Below, piece by piece: positions 22,903-32,204 of a DNA stretch of 64,000 bases; the stretch's first letter is position 1; the number at the start of each line of letters is the position of its first letter. The DNA is from Microlunatus panaciterrae (GTDB lineage Bacteria > Actinomycetota > Actinomycetes > Propionibacteriales > Propionibacteriaceae). The position numbers were made by a program, and so were the translations under genes. The notes under the pieces are model-generated. The model was not told the origin of the DNA and did not search any database. It worked only from the letters and a program-made list of their open reading frames with translations. Location of the stretch: NCBI RefSeq assembly GCF_016907535.1, contig NZ_JAFBCF010000001.1:1798001-1862000 (forward strand), written 5' to 3'.

Positions 22903-23331
22903 TCACTCGTTGATGGCCTCGACACCCAGCCGCTTGAGCTCCTCCAGGTGGTCCCGCATGTGCTGGAGCACCTCCGGCGGATGTGGCTCCCAGTCTGAGA
23001 CTTCGGCGATGACCCGCAGCGGCTCACGGGTGCGGTAGGACCTGGTCGGGTTGCCCGGGAACCTCTTGTCCGTCAGGTTGGGATCATCCTCGAAGAAGCC
23101 CGTGGGTTCCACGCGGTAGATCCTGCCCGGTCCCTCGCCCAACGCAAGTTCTGCGCCCCAGGTGGCCGCATCCAGGGTGGCGGTCAGGTAGATGAAATTC
23201 GCCGTCCCTCGCTGGCCGAAGTTGGAGCTGTACCCGGGGTAGAGCAGATCTCCCGGCTGCAGATCGGCCTTCGTGCCGTGGTAGAACGGCCCGACGTCCT
23301 TCGGCTCGGACGGCATCGGTTCGTTGTCCAT
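22903..23331 (-). CDS. arr: Rifampin ADP-ribosyltransferase homologue (Arr)
   Basis: A 142-residue protein very close in layout to Arr, which inactivates rifamycins by ADP-ribosylation of the C23 hydroxyl. GPFYHGTKADLQPGDLL, IYLTATLDAATWGAELA, YRVEPTGFFEDDPNLTDKRF and PGNPTRSYRTREPLRV match the family in order; His18, Tyr48 and the Asp pair at 82-83 occupy the catalytic positions. The ATG at 23329-23331 has GCGAGGTG upstream. There is no integron recombination site, so it looks like an ordinary chromosomal or island copy. Resistance is expected from the family but not shown. Confidence 0.9.
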   Translation of the reverse strand: MDNEPMPSEPKDVGPFYHGTKADLQPGDLLYPGYSSNFGQRGTANFIYLTATLDAATWGAELALGEGPGRIYRVEPTGFFEDDPNLTDKRFPGNPTRSYRTREPLRVIAEVSDWEPHPPEVLQHMRDHLEELKRLGVEAINE

Positions 23332-23383
23332 ACACACCTCGCAATCGTGGCAGGCTCTGACGTGGTCGTCGGGCCCTTGCTTT

Positions 23384-23683
23384 TCAGTCCTCTTTGAGGA
23401 AACCAGTGAGCGGGTCAATCTCAGCCAGGAACCCACGGATGTTCTCCCGATGCTCATCGAGAGCCATCTGCGGTGTCGGGCTCAGGCTGAACCCGTAGCC
23501 CGGGTTCGGCCCGCTCAGCCAGCTGTAGTCGGTGCCGCCATGTTGACCCGGGCGGACCTCGAACACTTCGCCCTCGACTTGCAGCGCGAAGGACGTGACG
23601 CCGGTCCCCCTCTCGATTTCGGGACGGACGCCTGGCACGGCCATGGGGTCGCCAGGACCGCCCCCTGGGTAGACCTCCTTCAT
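23384..23683 (-). CDS. Hypothetical protein, 99 residues
   Basis: A short soluble, Gly/Pro-rich protein (MKEVYPGGGPGDPMAVPGV) with an aromatic, charged centre (FALQVEGEVFEVRPGQHG) and C-terminus FLAEIDPLTGFLKED. I do not recognise it. It reads in the same direction as arr, 52 bases upstream of it, and could be co-transcribed. Codon use is GC-rich in third positions, which supports coding. Confidence 0.6.
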   Translation of the reverse strand: MKEVYPGGGPGDPMAVPGVRPEIERGTGVTSFALQVEGEVFEVRPGQHGGTDYSWLSGPNPGYGFSLSPTPQMALDEHRENIRGFLAEIDPLTGFLKED

Positions 23684-25597: not shown

Positions 25598-26302
25598 CTA
25601 GTGATCGAGGGCGATCTTGAGCTCGGCGCGGAGGCCGGTGAACAGCACGGCCAGCCCCTGGTCGAGCTCAGCCTCACCGTCGTAGTGGGCCAGCTCGCTG
25701 GCCAATCCCCGGGTGAGCGGGAACTCCTTCGCGGGCAACCGATGCAATCCGAGCCGGAGCAGGTCGTTGGTCTCTTCTGGGTCGGCGACGAGCTCTTGAA
25801 GCTCGGTGAGCATGTGCCCGTAGAGGAACCCGATGTAGAGCCGGTACACCCGCAGCGCCAGCGGCGGGGGGAACCCGGCGTCGGTAAGCACCCGCAGCAA
25901 CCGCTCCAACGGCCGCAGCGTGCCCAAGGGCCGAAGCCCCAGCGGGGTCGACAACGGCCGGGTGACGATCAGGCTGACGACGTGCGGGTGCGCCAGCCCG
26001 AGCCGTCGGAAGTCATGCGCCGTCCGGGAGAGCTGGGTCTGCCAGTCCTGTCCTCCGTCAGGGATGTCAAGCTCATTGAGCACGAGTTCGACGATGCCGT
26101 CGAGCAGCGCAGCGCGGTCAGGGGCATGGCGGTACAGAGCCATCGCATTCCGCCCGAACTCCTGGCCCAGCCGGCGACGGGTGAGTGCGTCCAGGCCCTC
26201 GTCGTCGACGAGCCGCAGGGCAGCAGCCATCACCCGATCCCGGGTCAACGGGGTTCGAGGGCCGGTCTTGTGGGCGTCGGGGGGATCAATCGGAACGTTC
26301 AT
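25598..26302 (-). CDS. TetR-family transcriptional regulator
   Basis: A 234-residue TetR-type repressor. The DNA-binding part is LTRDRVMAAALRLVDDEGLD followed by LTRRRLGQEFGRNAMALYRH, with a TetR_C-type ligand domain after residue 85 (long helices, LRPLERLLRVLTDAGFPPPL). I use ATG 26300-26302, where the family usually begins, but GTG 26363-26365 is possible and would add a Pro-rich 21-residue extension. A large palindrome lies just upstream and is probably its own operator, shared with the divergent small membrane-protein gene. Confidence 0.82.
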   Translation of the reverse strand: MNVPIDPPDAHKTGPRTPLTRDRVMAAALRLVDDEGLDALTRRRLGQEFGRNAMALYRHAPDRAALLDGIVELVLNELDIPDGGQDWQTQLSRTAHDFRRLGLAHPHVVSLIVTRPLSTPLGLRPLGTLRPLERLLRVLTDAGFPPPLALRVYRLYIGFLYGHMLTELQELVADPEETNDLLRLGLHRLPAKEFPLTRGLASELAHYDGEAELDQGLAVLFTGLRAELKIALDH

Positions 26303-26370
26303 CACACGGGCGCCAGCTTCTTCTGGAGGATGGGGTGGCCTGGGGTCGAATTGGACATCCCCCACTCTAC

Positions 26371-26403
26371 CTGTAGTGTCTACAACATAGACCTACAGTG
26401 TAG
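26371..26403. promoter_or_regulatory. Nested palindromic operator between TetR and the small membrane-protein gene
   Basis: CTGTAG (26371-26376) pairs with CTACAG (26393-26398), and inside it GTCTA (26378-26382) pairs with TAGAC (26388-26392) around CAACA, making a 28-bp near-perfect palindrome with one bulged base. Overlapping smaller palindromes, TGTAGTGTCTACA (26372-26384) and CTACAGTGTAG (26393-26403), suggest two adjacent half-overlapping sites. The position fits TetR autoregulation. Confidence 0.65.
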
Positions 26404-26490
26404 ATATCACTTGTAGGGATTGGCGAAGATGCCGAAATCGGCGCCGCCGACCGCGTGACCACAGGTCCGCACCTAGCAGAGAGCACCCCC

Positions 26491-26775
26491 ATGAGCACCT
26501 CCACCAGTACCCGCAGCAGCGACCTCGACCACGACAACCAGCGCCGCCGGCTGACAACCGAGACAAAGAACGCCACGAAGACCACCGAGTTCTTCGCTTT
26601 CGTCGCCATGGTCCTCGCAGTCGTCATCACTGCGAATCTCTACGACGGCAACGGCACTGACGGCGACCCGTTCGGCGCCACCACCGCCATGCGTTACGTC
26701 GTCTACCTCACCGTCGCCTACATGATCGCGCGCGGCCTCGCCAAGTCGGGCAGCCGCGAGGTCTACGACGCCTGA
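26491..26775 (+). CDS. Small membrane protein, possibly controlled by the divergent TetR
   Basis: A 94-residue protein with a polar Ser/Thr/Asp-rich N-terminus and two hydrophobic helices (about 35-55, FFAFVAMVLAVVITANLY, and 65-83, AMRYVVYLTVAYMIARGL). I do not recognise the family. ATG 26491 is preceded by AGAGAG; GTG 26455 is a weaker alternative. A perfect terminator hairpin follows 14 bases after the stop, so it is probably not part of the kinase/phosphatase operon downstream. Confidence 0.65.
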   Translation: MSTSTSTRSSDLDHDNQRRRLTTETKNATKTTEFFAFVAMVLAVVITANLYDGNGTDGDPFGATTAMRYVVYLTVAYMIARGLAKSGSREVYDA

Positions 26776-26992: not shown

Positions 26993-27808
26993 ATGACTGA
27001 GAACACCATTGCCGAGGGAACGCCCGCGAACCCCGACGTCCCCGGCGTCGAGAAGGCTGCCGCCGCTCCCGAGGTGACTCCCGCACCCGCCGCGACTCCC
27101 GCGCCACCAGCTGCCACCCAGACGAGCATGGCAGTTCCGCGCGGCCTCAGCTACGCCGTGGACATCGTCTTCTGCATCGACGTCACCGGCAGCATGACCC
27201 CGATCATCGACGCTGTGAAAGCAAACGCGCTCGGCTTCTACGATGACGTGCAGGCCAACCTGACCGAAAAGGGCAAGAACGTCGCCCAATTGCGGGTCCG
27301 GGTGATCGCCTTCCGCGACTTCATCGCGGACGGCCCAGCTGCGCTCGAGGAGTCGCCCTTTTACACCCTGCCCGCCGAGCGCGGCGGCTTCTCAGACTTT
27401 GTCAACGGGCTGATCGCCCAGGGCGGCGGCGATGCGCCGGAATCCGGCCTGGAGGCCGTGGCACTGGCCATCAACTCGCCCTGGACCACCACCGGCGACC
27501 GGCGCCGCCAGGTCATCGTGATCTGGACCGATCAGCCGGCCCACCCGCTGGACCCCTCGAACGTGCCTGCCGACCTGTCCTCGCGAGTGCCGGCTGACTT
27601 CAGCGCCCTCACCGACGTCTGGGAGGACGAGCAGGGCCCCATGGGTTCAAGCTCGAAGCGGCTCATCCTGTTCGCTCCCGACGGCCCCGGTTGGAGCGAC
27701 ATCTCAGCCGTCTGGGAGAACGTCGTGCACAACCCCTCACAGGCCGGCGGCGGCCTCTCCGAGGTCGACTACGGAACCATCATCGACTCCATCGGCAACT
27801 CGGTGTGA
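26993..27808 (+). CDS. TerY-like von Willebrand factor A domain protein
   Basis: A 271-residue cytoplasmic vWA protein. An Ala/Pro-rich N-terminal 50 residues lead into VDIVFCIDVTGSMTPIIDAV, with a metal-ion site of the D-x-T-x-S form at Asp63-Thr65-Ser67. VRVIAFRDF, GGGDAPESGLEAVALAI and RQVIVIWTDQPAHP are the usual later strands and metal-site loops. CGAGGAGAACC precedes ATG 26993. It is the first of four genes joined by 4-base stop/start overlaps with a PP2C-like phosphatase, a kinase and a zinc ribbon, the TerY-P arrangement, in which the vWA protein is thought to be scaffold or target. Confidence 0.88.
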   Translation: MTENTIAEGTPANPDVPGVEKAAAAPEVTPAPAATPAPPAATQTSMAVPRGLSYAVDIVFCIDVTGSMTPIIDAVKANALGFYDDVQANLTEKGKNVAQLRVRVIAFRDFIADGPAALEESPFYTLPAERGGFSDFVNGLIAQGGGDAPESGLEAVALAINSPWTTTGDRRRQVIVIWTDQPAHPLDPSNVPADLSSRVPADFSALTDVWEDEQGPMGSSSKRLILFAPDGPGWSDISAVWENVVHNPSQAGGGLSEVDYGTIIDSIGNSV

Positions 27809-28995
27809 GCCAGACGCGCAGCACCCGCTCCGGCGCCAAGGATCTGGCGCCGGGGCCCACGGTCTCGTTCGGGTTCAACCTGGGGAAGGTGCCCGACCAC
27901 GGTGAGGACTCCGACCCGATCGTGCGGGATGGTCCAGACCTGGGGCTGCTTGCCGTCTTCGATGGCATGGGCGGTGCCGGCGGCACGGTCTACGAGACCG
28001 ACGACGGTCCACGCAGCGGCGCCTACCTGGCTGCTCGGATCGCCCGCGATGTCGTGGAACGACGCATGCTCGACCTCCTGGTACCGGACTGGAACCTCAA
28101 GGGTGAGCAGGTCGCGGCCGACCTCCAACATGCCGTCCGGGCCGCGCTCCAGGACCGGGTGACGGAGCTGAAGGCGCCCAAGAGCGGGCTCCGATCCCGG
28201 CTGTTGCGGGCGCTGCCGACCACGATGGCGATGCTTGCTCTGCAACGGACCCAGCGCGGTGGGTCCACCTGGCTCTGTCACGTGTTCTGGGCCGGGGACT
28301 CCCGCGCGTACGTCTTCGAGCCGGGCGGGGCACGCCAGCTCACCACTGACGACCTGCGTGAGCCCAGCGACGCCATGACGAACCTGCGACGCGATTCCGT
28401 AGTCAGCAACGCCATGTCGGCCGATACCGAGTTCCACGTCAACTACCGGCACGTCGAGATCGAAGCGCCCTTCCTGCTGGTGTGCGCCACCGACGGTTGC
28501 TTCGGCTACCTCCCCTCACCGATGCACTTCGAGCAACTCGTGCTGAGCTCGCTGATCACCGCGCGCAGCGTCGCCGGCTGGTCCCAGACCATCCAGAGCC
28601 AGGTAGCTGCGGTGACCGGTGACGACGCCGCCATGTCGGTGATGGCGGTGGGAGCAGACCTCGCGGAGCTCCAGAGCCTTTTCGCCTCCCGGGTCGACGA
28701 GCTCGAGCAGCAGTTCACCACACCCATCGACGATCTGGGCCGATCCGTACAGCGAGCAGAACAGGAGCTGCAGGTGCTCCGCCAACGCCAGCTTGACGAC
28801 ACACAGCAACTGTGGGCCCGCTACCAGCCGGACTACGAGCGATACCTGCACACTCCAGTCGAACCGGAGCTCGAGGTCGAGAACCGTGACCCCGCGGAGG
28901 TCCACGCGGCGACCAGCGAGGCACGGCCCACCGCCGTCGAAGTCGTCGACGATCCGCCTGACGACGAGCCGGCGCGGGACGAGGCGACCTCGTGA
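27805..28995 (+). CDS. PP2C-like protein phosphatase of the TerY-P-type operon
   Basis: A 396-residue PPM/PP2C-fold protein. Metal-binding motifs are visible: LLAVFDGMGGAGG (Asp53), FWAGDSRAYVF, LVCATDGCFGY and TGDDAAMSVM. The domain ends near residue 285; a coiled-coil-like, Gln/Glu/Leu-rich stretch (about 290-345) and an acidic tail follow. The start is GTG 27805, overlapping the vWA stop as GTGA; a longer frame from 27691 is antisense-like and rejected. The DG(M)GG pair and TDG motif are intact, so it should be catalytically active and could reverse the action of the kinase encoded next. Confidence 0.88.
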   Translation: MSQTRSTRSGAKDLAPGPTVSFGFNLGKVPDHGEDSDPIVRDGPDLGLLAVFDGMGGAGGTVYETDDGPRSGAYLAARIARDVVERRMLDLLVPDWNLKGEQVAADLQHAVRAALQDRVTELKAPKSGLRSRLLRALPTTMAMLALQRTQRGGSTWLCHVFWAGDSRAYVFEPGGARQLTTDDLREPSDAMTNLRRDSVVSNAMSADTEFHVNYRHVEIEAPFLLVCATDGCFGYLPSPMHFEQLVLSSLITARSVAGWSQTIQSQVAAVTGDDAAMSVMAVGADLAELQSLFASRVDELEQQFTTPIDDLGRSVQRAEQELQVLRQRQLDDTQQLWARYQPDYERYLHTPVEPELEVENRDPAEVHAATSEARPTAVEVVDDPPDDEPARDEATS

Positions 28996-30092
28996 AGGCC
29001 GGCGACGTCATCAACGGCTACCTGATCCTGCAAGACTTCAAGGTCGTCGGCGCCGGACTCAGCAAGTGGACCTACGCCGAACGGGGTGGCCGGCAGTTCT
29101 TCATCAAGGAGTTCCTCAGCCCCACCTACCCCGACGAGAACGCGCCGGGCAGCGACAAGACCAAAGCCAAGAAGCGCGCCAGGTGTGCCGCCTTCGAAGC
29201 CCAGCACCGTGGCATGCAAAAGGCGTTAGCGCCCTTGTCGGCCTACGGCGGCAACCTCATCGTGACGCTCGACTTCTTCCGCTGGGGGGCCAAGTACTAC
29301 AAGATCACCGAGAAGGTCGAGGCCGAGGACCTCGGCCCGGCCGGGATTGCAGGGCTCGAGCTTCGCCTGCAGCTGGTGTTGATGAAGTCAGTCGCGCACA
29401 GCCTGAAGATCCTTCACGACCTGCGGATCGTGCACGGCGACCTGAAGCCAAGCAACATCCTGGTCAAGCGCACCGAGCTCGGTTACACCAGCAAGCTGAT
29501 CGACTTCGACAGCTCATACATCGCCGGCAACCCCCCGCCCTTCGAAGAGATCGTCGGCACCATCAACTACTACTCCCCCGAGCTGCTCGGCTACATCCAA
29601 GACGTCGGTGTCCGACCCAGTGAACTGGGGATCGCCTCCGACATCTTCGCGCTCGGCCTCATCTACAGCGAATTCCTCACCGGCGCCGTGCCACCCTTCG
29701 ACGCCACCACGTACCACGAACCCGCAGTCGCTGTCCGTAGCGGTGAGACACTCCGCATCCGTCGCGCCGGTATCGTGCCGGCTCTAGCCGAGCTGGTCGA
29801 CGCCATGCTCCTTGCCGACCCGACCCAGCGACCCACTATTGCCCAGGTCCACGCCACCCTGATGGGTATCCGGCTCACCAGCGACAGCCCCGCTCCGACG
29901 GCTCGGACCACCACGCCGGCCCGAAGGGTGCCGGCACCAGCAACGACGCCGACCGGTGCGCTGCGAGGCAAGGGACTCCGCATCAGCGACGCCGGCAGTC
30001 CGTCCGGCGAGACGATGCCTGCCGGCACCAATCCGGCTCAACGGCTCGTCGGCAAGCTCGTGGGCAAGCTGACAGGCCGGTCACCCCGATGA
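28992..30092 (+). CDS. Ser/Thr protein kinase-like protein of the TerY-P-type operon
   Basis: A 366-residue soluble Hanks-type kinase with variant motifs. The glycine loop is VVGAGLSKWTYAE, the ATP-binding lysine is Lys39 in FFIKEF, the catalytic loop is IVHGDLKPSNIL (HGD for HRD, Asp150, Asn155), the metal loop is DFD at 171-173 instead of DFG, and the activation segment ends in SPELLG. A Pro/Thr-rich linker and basic tail (GKLVGKLTGRSPR) replace any membrane anchor. It starts at GTG 28992 overlapping the phosphatase stop, and its own stop overlaps the next start. All residues needed for phosphate transfer are present. Confidence 0.9.
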   Translation: MKAGDVINGYLILQDFKVVGAGLSKWTYAERGGRQFFIKEFLSPTYPDENAPGSDKTKAKKRARCAAFEAQHRGMQKALAPLSAYGGNLIVTLDFFRWGAKYYKITEKVEAEDLGPAGIAGLELRLQLVLMKSVAHSLKILHDLRIVHGDLKPSNILVKRTELGYTSKLIDFDSSYIAGNPPPFEEIVGTINYYSPELLGYIQDVGVRPSELGIASDIFALGLIYSEFLTGAVPPFDATTYHEPAVAVRSGETLRIRRAGIVPALAELVDAMLLADPTQRPTIAQVHATLMGIRLTSDSPAPTARTTTPARRVPAPATTPTGALRGKGLRISDAGSPSGETMPAGTNPAQRLVGKLVGKLTGRSPR

Positions 30093-30418
30093 ACCCCCTC
30101 CGACCCGTGTGGCGCTGCCGCGTGTGCGAGGGCGTCAACCGCAACGGCCGAGTGTGCGCCACCTGCGGAGCCGAAGTGCCTGTAGGTGAACCGCTGCGCG
30201 CTGCCGTCCGCACCGTCACACCCGGCAGCACCCGCCCCACGGCACCACCGCCGGTGCCACCTGATCCCACCCGACACGAGTTGCGGACGTACCCGGTGCC
30301 GGAAGAGATCCACCCGGTGGATTCCGATGACCGACTCGACTTCGACAGCGGCTTCGAGATCCGGCCGCTGCCTGGCGGCTGCATGATCAACTTCGGGCCC
30401 CGCAACCGCTCCTACTGA
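30089..30418 (+). CDS. Small zinc-ribbon protein closing the TerY-P-type operon
   Basis: A 109-residue protein with one zinc ribbon at the N-terminus (Cys10, Cys13, Cys23, Cys26: CRVC ... CATC), a Thr/Pro-rich linker rich in possible phospho-acceptors, and a conserved-looking acidic and aromatic end (DFDSGFEIRPLPGG, then CMINFGPRNRSY). It is coupled to the kinase by an ATGA overlap. Kinases of TerY-P-type modules are associated with zinc ribbons, so this may be the separated ribbon, an adaptor, or the substrate. I know no name for it. Confidence 0.8.
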   Translation: MNPLRPVWRCRVCEGVNRNGRVCATCGAEVPVGEPLRAAVRTVTPGSTRPTAPPPVPPDPTRHELRTYPVPEEIHPVDSDDRLDFDSGFEIRPLPGGCMINFGPRNRSY

Positions 30419-30490: not shown

Positions 30491-31960
30491 TCAGGGCTGG
30501 GCTACGACGACAGCCATCATCCCGCGGTCTTCGTGGTCGAGGATGTGGCAGTGGTAGACGGTCTGCCCCCCGAAGTCGCTGATGGGGACACGCACTCGGA
30601 CCTGCCCACGAGCGGGCACGATGACGACGTCCCGCCAGTCAGGTGGGCCGGAAGGGTCGTGGTCCGGCGCGTCAACGACCTGCATGGGCCACACGTGGAG
30701 GTGGAAGGGATGATCCATAGGCGTGTCGTTGCCGATCGTCCACTCCTCGACGGTGCCGAGCTGCAGCTTCTGGTCAGTGCGCGCTGGGTCGAACTCCTGC
30801 CCATCGAATCCGAACGACGCGCCTCCCATGCTCATCTGCATGGTGAACGTGATGGTTCGGCGGCGGTCCAAGGCGGCACCTCGCAGGTCGGCCGCAGGCC
30901 GGAAGGTGAACTCGGCTGAACCAGGGCTCGCAGTAGTCGCGGAGGGACGGCCGCCCACCTCGACGGTGGCCAGCTCCGCTGCGCGCGACGTGCTACCCGA
31001 GCCGCCGGACATCATGCCCATGCCGCCGCGGTCGACGTCGAGGGTACGGAGGCGGAACGAGCCGGCACGCTCAAGTCGGACCAGAAAGTCGGTACGGTTC
31101 CCAGGCGCCAAGACGACGCTGTCCCGGTCGCGCGGTGCGCTCAGCGCCTGCCCGTCGTACCCGAGCAGACCGAGGGTGTGGCCATCCAGGCGCAGCCGCA
31201 GGAAGCGCGATGTGCAGGCGTTCAGGACCCGCCAACGCTCGACCGTGCCGGGCGCCGTGGTGATAGTGGGGCGAAGCTGCCCGTTGACGAGGACCAGCTC
31301 ACCCTCGCGACCGGCCATGATCTGCGGGCCGCTCACCGGGATGACCCGGCCGTCGCCGGAGAGGGTGATGTCGCTGACCACGAGGACTCGCTCGCGGTCG
31401 ACCGACGGCTCCCCGGCCCCGACGACGACGATGGTGCCGTAGAGACCGCCGAACACCTGGTCGGCAACACTGCCATGCATGTGCGGGTGATACCAGAAGG
31501 TTCCCGGCGGGTGGTCGTCGGGGATGGCGTACTCATAGCGCATCGTCTTGCCCGCCCCGACGTGCCGGAAGACGTTGTCGCTGCGTCCCTCCGGCGAGAC
31601 GTGCAGACCGTGCGTGTGCAGGTTGGTCGCGCTGTCGAGGTCGTTGACGAACTCGACGCGGAGCCGGTCTCCCGGGCGCACCCGGAGCGTGGGCCCCGGC
31701 ACGGTGCCGTTGTAGCCGAGAGCGCGGGTACGTCGACCCGCAACCGTCACGCCGGGCGCTGCCCGCAGTCGCACGTCGAGCGACCCGCCACGGCTGCTCA
31801 GAACGCGCGGCTGCAGCAACTCCTGACCGGGCCGTTCGGGGAGCGCCTCCGACGCGGGGGTGAGGAAGGACCGCCACGTGCCGACCGCGCCGGTGATCGC
31901 GCCGACAGCGCCGAGCGCCGCGATCTGCAGAGCGCGGCGTCGACTGACCTCACCGCTCAT
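30491..31960 (-). CDS. Tat-exported multicopper oxidase
   Basis: A 489-residue three-domain cupredoxin oxidase. All four copper motifs are present in order: NLHTHGLHVS, TFWYHPHMHG, DHPFHLHVWPM and VYHCHILDHEDRGMM, the last with an axial Met for the type 1 copper. A Met-rich patch (GGMGMMSGGS) resembles copper-binding loops of CueO-type enzymes. The start at 31958-31960 gives a Tat signal (SRRRALQIAALGAVGAITGA). It overlaps the SHOCT gene stop by 11 bases, so the two are co-transcribed. It is probably a periplasmic-side cuprous or phenol oxidase; copper tolerance is an inference. Confidence 0.9.
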   Translation of the reverse strand: MSGEVSRRRALQIAALGAVGAITGAVGTWRSFLTPASEALPERPGQELLQPRVLSSRGGSLDVRLRAAPGVTVAGRRTRALGYNGTVPGPTLRVRPGDRLRVEFVNDLDSATNLHTHGLHVSPEGRSDNVFRHVGAGKTMRYEYAIPDDHPPGTFWYHPHMHGSVADQVFGGLYGTIVVVGAGEPSVDRERVLVVSDITLSGDGRVIPVSGPQIMAGREGELVLVNGQLRPTITTAPGTVERWRVLNACTSRFLRLRLDGHTLGLLGYDGQALSAPRDRDSVVLAPGNRTDFLVRLERAGSFRLRTLDVDRGGMGMMSGGSGSTSRAAELATVEVGGRPSATTASPGSAEFTFRPAADLRGAALDRRRTITFTMQMSMGGASFGFDGQEFDPARTDQKLQLGTVEEWTIGNDTPMDHPFHLHVWPMQVVDAPDHDPSGPPDWRDVVIVPARGQVRVRVPISDFGGQTVYHCHILDHEDRGMMAVVVAQP

Positions 31961-32204
31961 CCAACGCCCGCATCCGCTCTCGCATCTCCTCTTCGGAGAT
32001 CTCCCCCCGGGCGTACCGCTCTCGAAGGATCTCCCGCGAGCGGTCGTGACTTGTGTCCTGTGGTCGGTCGGCGCCGTCCTCGCTGCCGCGGTCTCTCGCC
32101 GATGAGCGCAGCCGTACCAGCGCCCAAGCCACGGTGACCAGCCCCAGCACAAGGAGCACCGGCCAGATCCAGGCTCAGTCGATGCCGCCGTATCCGCCCA
32201 TCAT
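31950..32204 (-). pseudogene. SHOCT-domain small membrane protein gene with in-frame TGA at codon 10
   Basis: ATG ATG at 32199-32204, preceded by AAGGAAGG, opens MMGGYGGID and then meets TGA (32175-32177), after which the frame continues as AWIWPVLLVLGLVTVAWALV and ends in a SHOCT motif (ILRERYARGEISEEEMRERM). Family members have aromatic residues, often Trp, at the position of the TGA, so this is best explained as TGG to TGA. A downstream GTG (32157-32159) could restart a 69-residue version lacking part of the helix. It precedes and overlaps the multicopper oxidase. Confidence 0.7.

Follow-up and report, generated by a model that had tools for sequence, protein, structure and literature searches.

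Layout of the operon

The window analysed here is a 64,000-nucleotide stretch of the Microlunatus panaciterrae genome (NCBI RefSeq assembly GCF_016907535.1, contig NZ_JAFBCF010000001.1, positions 1,798,001 to 1,862,000 of the forward strand). It carries a four-gene operon that encodes a vWA protein, a PP2C-type phosphatase, a Ser/Thr kinase and a small finger protein, the fourth subunit (Table 1). The original prediction, made from the letters of the window, had described these genes as a TerY-P-type phosphorylation module with a separate fourth subunit. The open reading frame (ORF) coordinates agree with the layout that it gave, with 4-base overlaps at all three gene junctions (GTGA, GTGA and ATGA). 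AGGAG precedes the vWA gene, the first of the operon, and all four subunits are encoded within 3.4 kb. The genome is a single 4.07-Mb contig, and searching it with the vWA protein returned one copy, that of the window.

Table 1. Positions of the four genes, their motifs and associated features (window coordinates unless a locus is named)
Feature	Position	Strand	Description
vWA protein	26993-27808	+	271 aa, ATG start; ORF call and Pfam
PP2C-type phosphatase	27805-28995	+	396 aa, GTG start; ORF call and Pfam
Ser/Thr kinase	28992-30092	+	366 aa, GTG start; ORF call and Pfam
Fourth subunit, finger protein	30089-30418	+	109 aa, ATG start; ORF call
Q43-T44-S45-M46 motif (Q[ST]S[LM])	27119-27130	+	In the variable tail, just before the vWA domain
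Zinc finger W-x-C-x2-C-x3-N-x5-C-x2-C	30110-30166	+	N-terminal in the fourth subunit
Divergent TetR regulator and small membrane protein pair	25598-26775		Adjoins the cassette in the window and L032
Herpetosiphon pHAU01 finger	L067:11851-12099		82-codon frame; RanBP2-type finger and C-terminal membrane segment

The vWA protein, phosphatase and kinase

The vWA protein matches the Pfam model VWA_4 at 34 bits (cut-off 27) and the VWA model at 12.6 bits, below its cut-off of 23.8. A disordered Ala/Pro-rich tail (residues 1-52) is followed by an integrin-beta-I-like vWA domain. The D-x-T-x-S metal site that had been claimed is borne out by the related systems, in which D63, T65, S67, D147, P149, E150 and D180 are all conserved (21/21), and, as we read the alignments, D147-x-P149-E150 stands where YegL has the Thr of its metal-ion-dependent adhesion site (MIDAS). 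The search for vWA relatives returned 1876 at E ≤ 0.001, the best 120 of which are 77-100% identical. Among 120 relatives examined, 14 lack a recognised junction between tail and domain; Q[ST]S[LM] is present in 104 of the other 106 and is missing in loci L082 and L083. We infer that this motif is a candidate phospho-acceptor or docking site.

The phosphatase matches PP2C_2 at 33.1 bits (cut-off 24), and its C-terminal part gives a weak coiled-coil match (E 0.019, below cut-off). In keeping with the intact metal motifs predicted, D53, D165, D230 and D273 occur in 21/21 related systems and D274 in 20/21. The Herpetosiphon phosphatase has no Pfam match at E ≤ 0.01 and was assigned through its similarity to that of the window. 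The kinase matches Pkinase at 88.3 bits (cut-off 31.7), with K39, E69, H148, D150, K152 and D171-F172-D173 present in all 21 systems and N155 in 20, which upholds the predicted Lys39/Asp150/Asn155 set. HGD (HSD in some relatives) replaces HRD in these kinases, and DFD replaces DFG. The C-terminal tail of the kinase is of low complexity and contains LRGKGLR; CxxC occurs in none of the 21 kinases of related systems, and Pfam found no OB-fold match in the window kinase. Judged by their residues, the kinase and the phosphatase both look active.

The fourth subunit

The canonical RanBP2-type finger reads W-x-C-x(2,4)-C-x3-N-x6-C-x2-C. The finger of the window has x5 between Asn and Cys, one residue short, whereas the spacing is x6 in the relatives L046, L047 and L067; we counted the pattern as RanBP2-type despite the x5 spacing. 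Pfam gives nothing above cut-off for the window protein (DZR_2 at E 0.009). Six residues (C10, C13, E14, N17, C23 and C26) are invariant in 23 aligned proteins, the Chloroflexota one included. The profile of this alignment retrieved a chain of the PDB named RanBP2-type zinc finger (E 8.9e-10), together with a weak match to the NPL4 finger (E 0.13). Two fourth proteins, those of L046 and L047, score above the cut-off of 27 for Zn_ribbon_RanBP (PF00641), at 28.5 and 29.3 bits. Exceptions to the pattern are L045, which has no Trp, is overlooked by the strict pattern and was recognised by eye, and L041, which has Ser for Asn. Thus, while the length of 109 residues in the original prediction is correct, the protein is best described, on these comparisons, as a RanBP2-type finger and not as a zinc ribbon. 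Nor is it confined to this genome, as 94 proteins were found for the gene, the window's own included.

The fourth subunit also carries a conserved C-terminal RPLPGGC and has no FHA-domain match at E ≤ 1. Over 19-residue stretches, hydropathy peaks at 1.98-3.24 in 7 of 17 fourth proteins and at 0.74-0.99 in the remaining ten, which include that of the window; the seven thus have a transmembrane-like segment and are apparently membrane-anchored. Some RanBP2-type fingers bind ubiquitin. Binding of such fingers to proteins and RNA is described in PMC6509490.

Conservation of the four-gene cassette

A vWA scan of genomes gave 10 loci, and additional genomes gave more. The close clade consists of 13 loci, the window with L032-L040 and L042-L044, and the four genes stand in identical order in all 12 that extend far enough. 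L035 is cut by a contig end, and both it and L069 were excluded from the count of complete cassettes. The vWA, PP2C and kinase genes co-occur in all 21 related systems. The finger gene accompanies them in 19 of 20 complete cassettes from three phyla, namely 17 in Actinomycetota (the window counted), one on a Chloroflexota plasmid and one in Lachnospiraceae, so that the linkage of the fourth gene to the triad, which the original prediction had put up as a test, holds. In 16 of these 19 the finger gene starts -7 to 21 bases from the 3′ end of the kinase gene, and L082 and L083, which came from a later draw of 396 genomes in the phylum, both have it after the kinase. On the cyanobacterial Calothrix plasmid L068, vWA, kinase and PP2C genes are present and no finger lies within 18.6 kb. 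None of the five vWA-only loci (L048-L052) has the strict finger motif, nor does it turn up in 129,908 bases of other loci, and the 64-kb window has it a single time.

Gene order varies among the more distant relatives. L045 reads vWA-PP2C-kinase-finger, and L046 and L047 read PP2C-kinase-vWA-double finger. In the Lachnospiraceae locus L041, the finger is C-terminal in a protein that also has membrane segments and whose gene precedes PP2C; a second zinc-ribbon frame lies between the two. The finger frame of the Herpetosiphon plasmid pHAU01 lies between the consecutive locus tags Haur_5140 and Haur_5141 and is missing from the gene table.

Outside the cassette, a comparison of all frames found almost nothing in common among the close-clade loci. 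Two proteins are common to the window and L032, which are of the same genus: a TetR regulator (70%) and a small membrane protein (78-86%). Near the L036 cassette lies a 45% match to the small protein, and L034 has distant TetR and ABC-transporter matches. The TetR/small-protein pair occurs without the cassette beside it in three genomes of the genus (L070, L073 and L074), one of which, G010, has the cassette elsewhere, and 7 of 20 genomes of the genus, with the window counted, have the small membrane protein. Because almost nothing else is shared between loci and this pair occurs without the cassette, the four overlapping genes, with their intact catalytic and metal residues, are the entire conserved unit.

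Several further genes were seen beside relatives of the cassette. L046 and L047 share two extra genes upstream of PP2C (L046:3284-7149 and L047:11972-15428) with weak HEAT-repeat and Band_7 matches, below cut-off, and these could possibly encode an effector or a membrane platform. In L041, a leucine-rich-repeat (DUF285/BspA-like) protein is encoded between the kinase and two tandem vWA genes (L041:7593-9026). In L048-L051 the vWA relative is solitary and has a conserved CoA-transferase gene beside it (assigned by Pfam for L048 and L049). The gene of a large Ser/Thr kinase lies close by, assigned by Pfam for L048 and represented by similar frames in the other three; these four loci show no match to the window PP2C and no finger motif. 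In the window itself, a multicopper oxidase gene (30491-32152, minus strand) converges on the operon, and G015 is the one further genome of the genus with a counterpart at E ≤ 1e-60 (best identity 54%). The gene at 22903-23457 (minus strand) is related to a drug-resistance gene, its product having a Rifampin ADP-ribosyltransferase domain (Pfam Arr-ms, E 8e-49).

Distribution and mobility

The cassette is patchily distributed, being present in 4 of 20 genomes of the genus by its kinase and in 7 of 57 relatives by its vWA protein, the window included in both counts and one of the seven a partial 53% match. The class and phylum draws scored six candidates per genome, and their counts are lower bounds: the vWA protein is present in at least 19 of 393 genomes at E ≤ 0.001, most of them weak matches, and in at least 2 of 396 besides the window at E ≤ 1e-30. 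The concatenated tree places the cassette of L044, a locus from the genus of the window, with Acidimicrobiia, and constraining the genus to one clade is rejected by the approximately unbiased test (p-AU 8.8e-7 with 19 rows and 1e-72 with 13 rows). Relatives are borne on pHAU01, where a resolvase gene adjoins, and on the Calothrix plasmid, and phage-integrase genes lie near those of L041 (1.2e-25) and L069 (8.6e-18). A tblastn search with the vWA protein returned two phage-collection records, one of which, MT836186 (L069), has PP2C-kinase-vWA about 0.9 kb from its integrase gene. Because little is shared outside the four genes, the tree contradicts genus membership and relatives lie on plasmids or near integrases, the cassette is apparently a mobile, horizontally moving unit.

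The integrative-element debris that had been reported beside the operon was not recovered. None of the nine phage-integrase or seven rve matches of the genome falls within the window, a Pfam scan of ten window neighbours of the operon found no mobile-element domain, and three odd frames nearby have no PHROG match.

Comparison with known systems

The TerY-P triad comprises the vWA protein TerY, a PP2C phosphatase and a Ser/Thr kinase with a C-terminal zinc ribbon (PMC11090510). The operon resembles it in encoding the three enzyme types together, in having a zinc-binding module linked to the kinase gene and in its accessory distribution. It differs in that its vWA protein is VWA_4/integrin-like, and its zinc-binding part, a RanBP2-type finger, is encoded as a protein of its own, which in several relatives has a membrane segment. 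The ten neighbours include no Ter or restriction genes, in agreement with the stand-alone form lacking TerC/TerD that had been predicted. As a control, YegL matched VWA at 39.8 bits and gave no VWA_4 match; it retrieved 2328 plasmid records, one listed as TerY-C, whereas the window vWA protein retrieved seven, none enterobacterial. TerY proper is ruled out by these profile and plasmid searches. Of the three family assignments in the original prediction, PP2C and kinase stand, both above their Pfam cut-offs, and TerY does not; with no zinc ribbon on the kinase either, TerY-P membership in the strict sense has to be given up. The more general description, a vWA-PP2C-kinase module with a separate, linked fourth subunit, is supported, and the cassette represents a vWA-PP2C-kinase variant partnered by a RanBP2-type finger.

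Two other bacterial sets are similar in part. Escherichia coli likewise has genes for a vWA protein (YegL), a PP2C (PphC) and a putative kinase (YegI) near one another, but YegL matches PF00092 and not VWA_4, YegI has no Pkinase match at E ≤ 0.01 and matches helix-hairpin-helix only weakly, and no finger gene is annotated alongside. The actinobacterial kinase-PP2C-vWA set assigned to GAP1-N2 GTPase-centred conflict systems (PMC7159879) also has an active kinase, an active PP2C and a stand-alone vWA protein adjacent, with a zinc ribbon or transmembrane helices. As that source describes it, however, the kinase itself bears the ribbon or helices as a fusion and GTPase genes lie alongside, whereas the window finger has its own gene and the ten neighbours include no GTPase or GAP1 gene. 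In the open PMC literature we found no vWA-PP2C-kinase set with a separate RanBP2-type finger gene; subscription papers lie outside that search and a prior description is possible.

Among tested systems, the nearest is the archaellum regulator of Sulfolobus. There, ArnA needs only its RanBP2-type finger to bind the vWA protein ArnB in the unphosphorylated form (PMC12852372); ArnC phosphorylates ArnB, weakening the site for the ArnA finger, and PP2A reverses this (PMC12852372, PMC6509490). As in this regulator, where the kinases ArnC/ArnD and PP2A act on ArnA-ArnB, a RanBP2-type finger protein is paired with a vWA protein under a kinase and a phosphatase. The analogy may be partial. A single-sequence search found no solved structural relative of the window vWA protein up to E 1, and neither TerY nor Arn entries are among the 50 fold matches listed for it, which excludes nothing.

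Proposed mechanism and alternatives

Since the operon encodes the same four functions as the Arn switch side by side, we infer a vWA-finger pair controlled by a kinase and a phosphatase. On balance, we favour, with modest confidence, the reading that the cassette is a self-contained, horizontally moving four-subunit phosphorylation switch acting on this pair in the manner of ArnA-ArnB. The kinase would phosphorylate the vWA protein, with Q[ST]S[LM] or its vicinity in the disordered tail as the most likely site, and perhaps also the finger protein, and the PP2C phosphatase would reverse this. The RanBP2-type finger would dock on one phosphorylation state of the vWA protein and, in several relatives, may tether it to the membrane through its C-terminal segment; the membrane segments suggest hold-and-release at the membrane. 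A signal would flip the pair between held and released states, and the released integrin-like vWA protein could then use its metal site to bind a target of the cell or of an invader. Such a switch would work like the archaeal ArnA-ArnB/ArnC/PP2A and TerY-P modules, with its subunits arranged differently.

Several observations weigh against this reading. Q[ST]S[LM] is limited to the close clade, and the vWA proteins listed are mostly near relatives. No Arn structure is among the vWA profile matches up to E 0.1, and the window proteins lack the FHA domain of ArnA and the additional domains of ArnB, which belong to an archaeal system. PF00641 is not reached by the fourth proteins of L045, L067 and L082, nor by that of the window, whose finger also gave a poor structure model (predicted template modelling score, pTM, 0.30) without a PDB match at E ≤ 0.001. 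The case for transfer carries a caveat of misbinning, as the L044 contig is 6.75 kb long, in an assembly of 610 contigs, and the Acidimicrobiia genomes are metagenome bins.

Phage defence by the four-gene cassette is possible. TerY-P protects Pseudomonas PAO1 against phages, most cells surviving with some death (PMC10889362), and related modules are counted as defence systems and protect likewise (PMC11090510, PMC7699616). By this account the operon would be a stand-alone system of the TerY-P kind, with the kinase as an infection sensor that phosphorylates targets of the host or the phage, the phosphatase silencing it, and the vWA and finger proteins acting as sensors or adaptors. We hold it to be a tentative alternative, less probable than the switch described above. 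The patchy presence, apparent transfer and plasmid- and integrase-linked relatives fit it, as do the genes next to the distant relative L047 (a PD-T4-6-like kinase, a NERD/UvrD helicase and a HEC-05-like gene) and, some 3 kb away from the Herpetosiphon cassette, a gene with a CHAT domain. Against it, no model of PADLOC, whose coverage of TerY-P is unconfirmed, matches the vWA, PP2C or finger protein at E ≤ 1, and the 35 PADLOC families matched by the kinase are mostly kinase models (best mad6, 1.6e-27), as may be so for any kinase. The ten window neighbours hold no defence gene, and one kinase scan of viral contigs, tuned to close relatives, found no relative. We also scanned 108 of 123 predicted flanking genes from 12 close relatives (12 of L045 and three short genes were left out), and the defence-model matches at E ≤ 1e-10 were scattered: three genes matched the mad2 model, and single genes matched SoFic, AbiEi, AbiEii, DinG, PDC and other models (34 families in all, these among the 25 listed). 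Defence genes around homologous loci, for which the original prediction had suggested looking, are occasional: L047 has defence-like genes beside it, and the matches around the close relatives are scattered.

A signalling module for envelope or stress functions, in which the finger, anchored in several relatives, localises a switch that tunes a housekeeping process, appears to us about as probable as defence. It would account for the transmembrane-like segments in 7 of 17 fourth proteins, for the weak Band_7/SPFH match (E 0.0019, below cut-off) of the gene before PP2C in L047 and for chromosomal surroundings such as the DNA ligase gene in L045; however, a patchy cassette that is absent from most sampled relatives and apparently transferred fits an accessory trait better. 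We regard it as unlikely that the operon is a genuine TerY-P triad in which the C-terminal zinc ribbon of the kinase has simply moved to a gene of its own. The three enzyme types are the same, the TerY-P kinase does have such a ribbon (PMC11090510) and the finger gene directly follows that of the kinase in 16 of 19 cassettes, but the vWA protein belongs to another lineage (VWA_4, integrin-beta-I-like D-x-P-E). The finger, moreover, follows vWA in L046 and L047 and precedes PP2C in L041, suggesting that it behaves as an independent partner, and the protein often has its own membrane segment.

Significance

A bolder form of the proposed switch on a vWA-finger pair, which we consider doubtful, is that the cassettes form an undescribed, mobile bacterial switch family in which a RanBP2-type finger, often anchored, holds an integrin-beta-I-like vWA protein, an operon-encoded counterpart of ArnAB serving as a stand-alone anti-invader system. 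The analysis sets a four-part phosphorylation switch apart from the broad TerY-P label and names a small, readily missed finger partner, with writer, eraser, vWA protein and finger in one operon. If the finger-vWA pair is indeed the switch, an archaeal mechanism would become testable in bacteria, and if the cassette is defensive, it would represent a new type of phospho-signalling defence.

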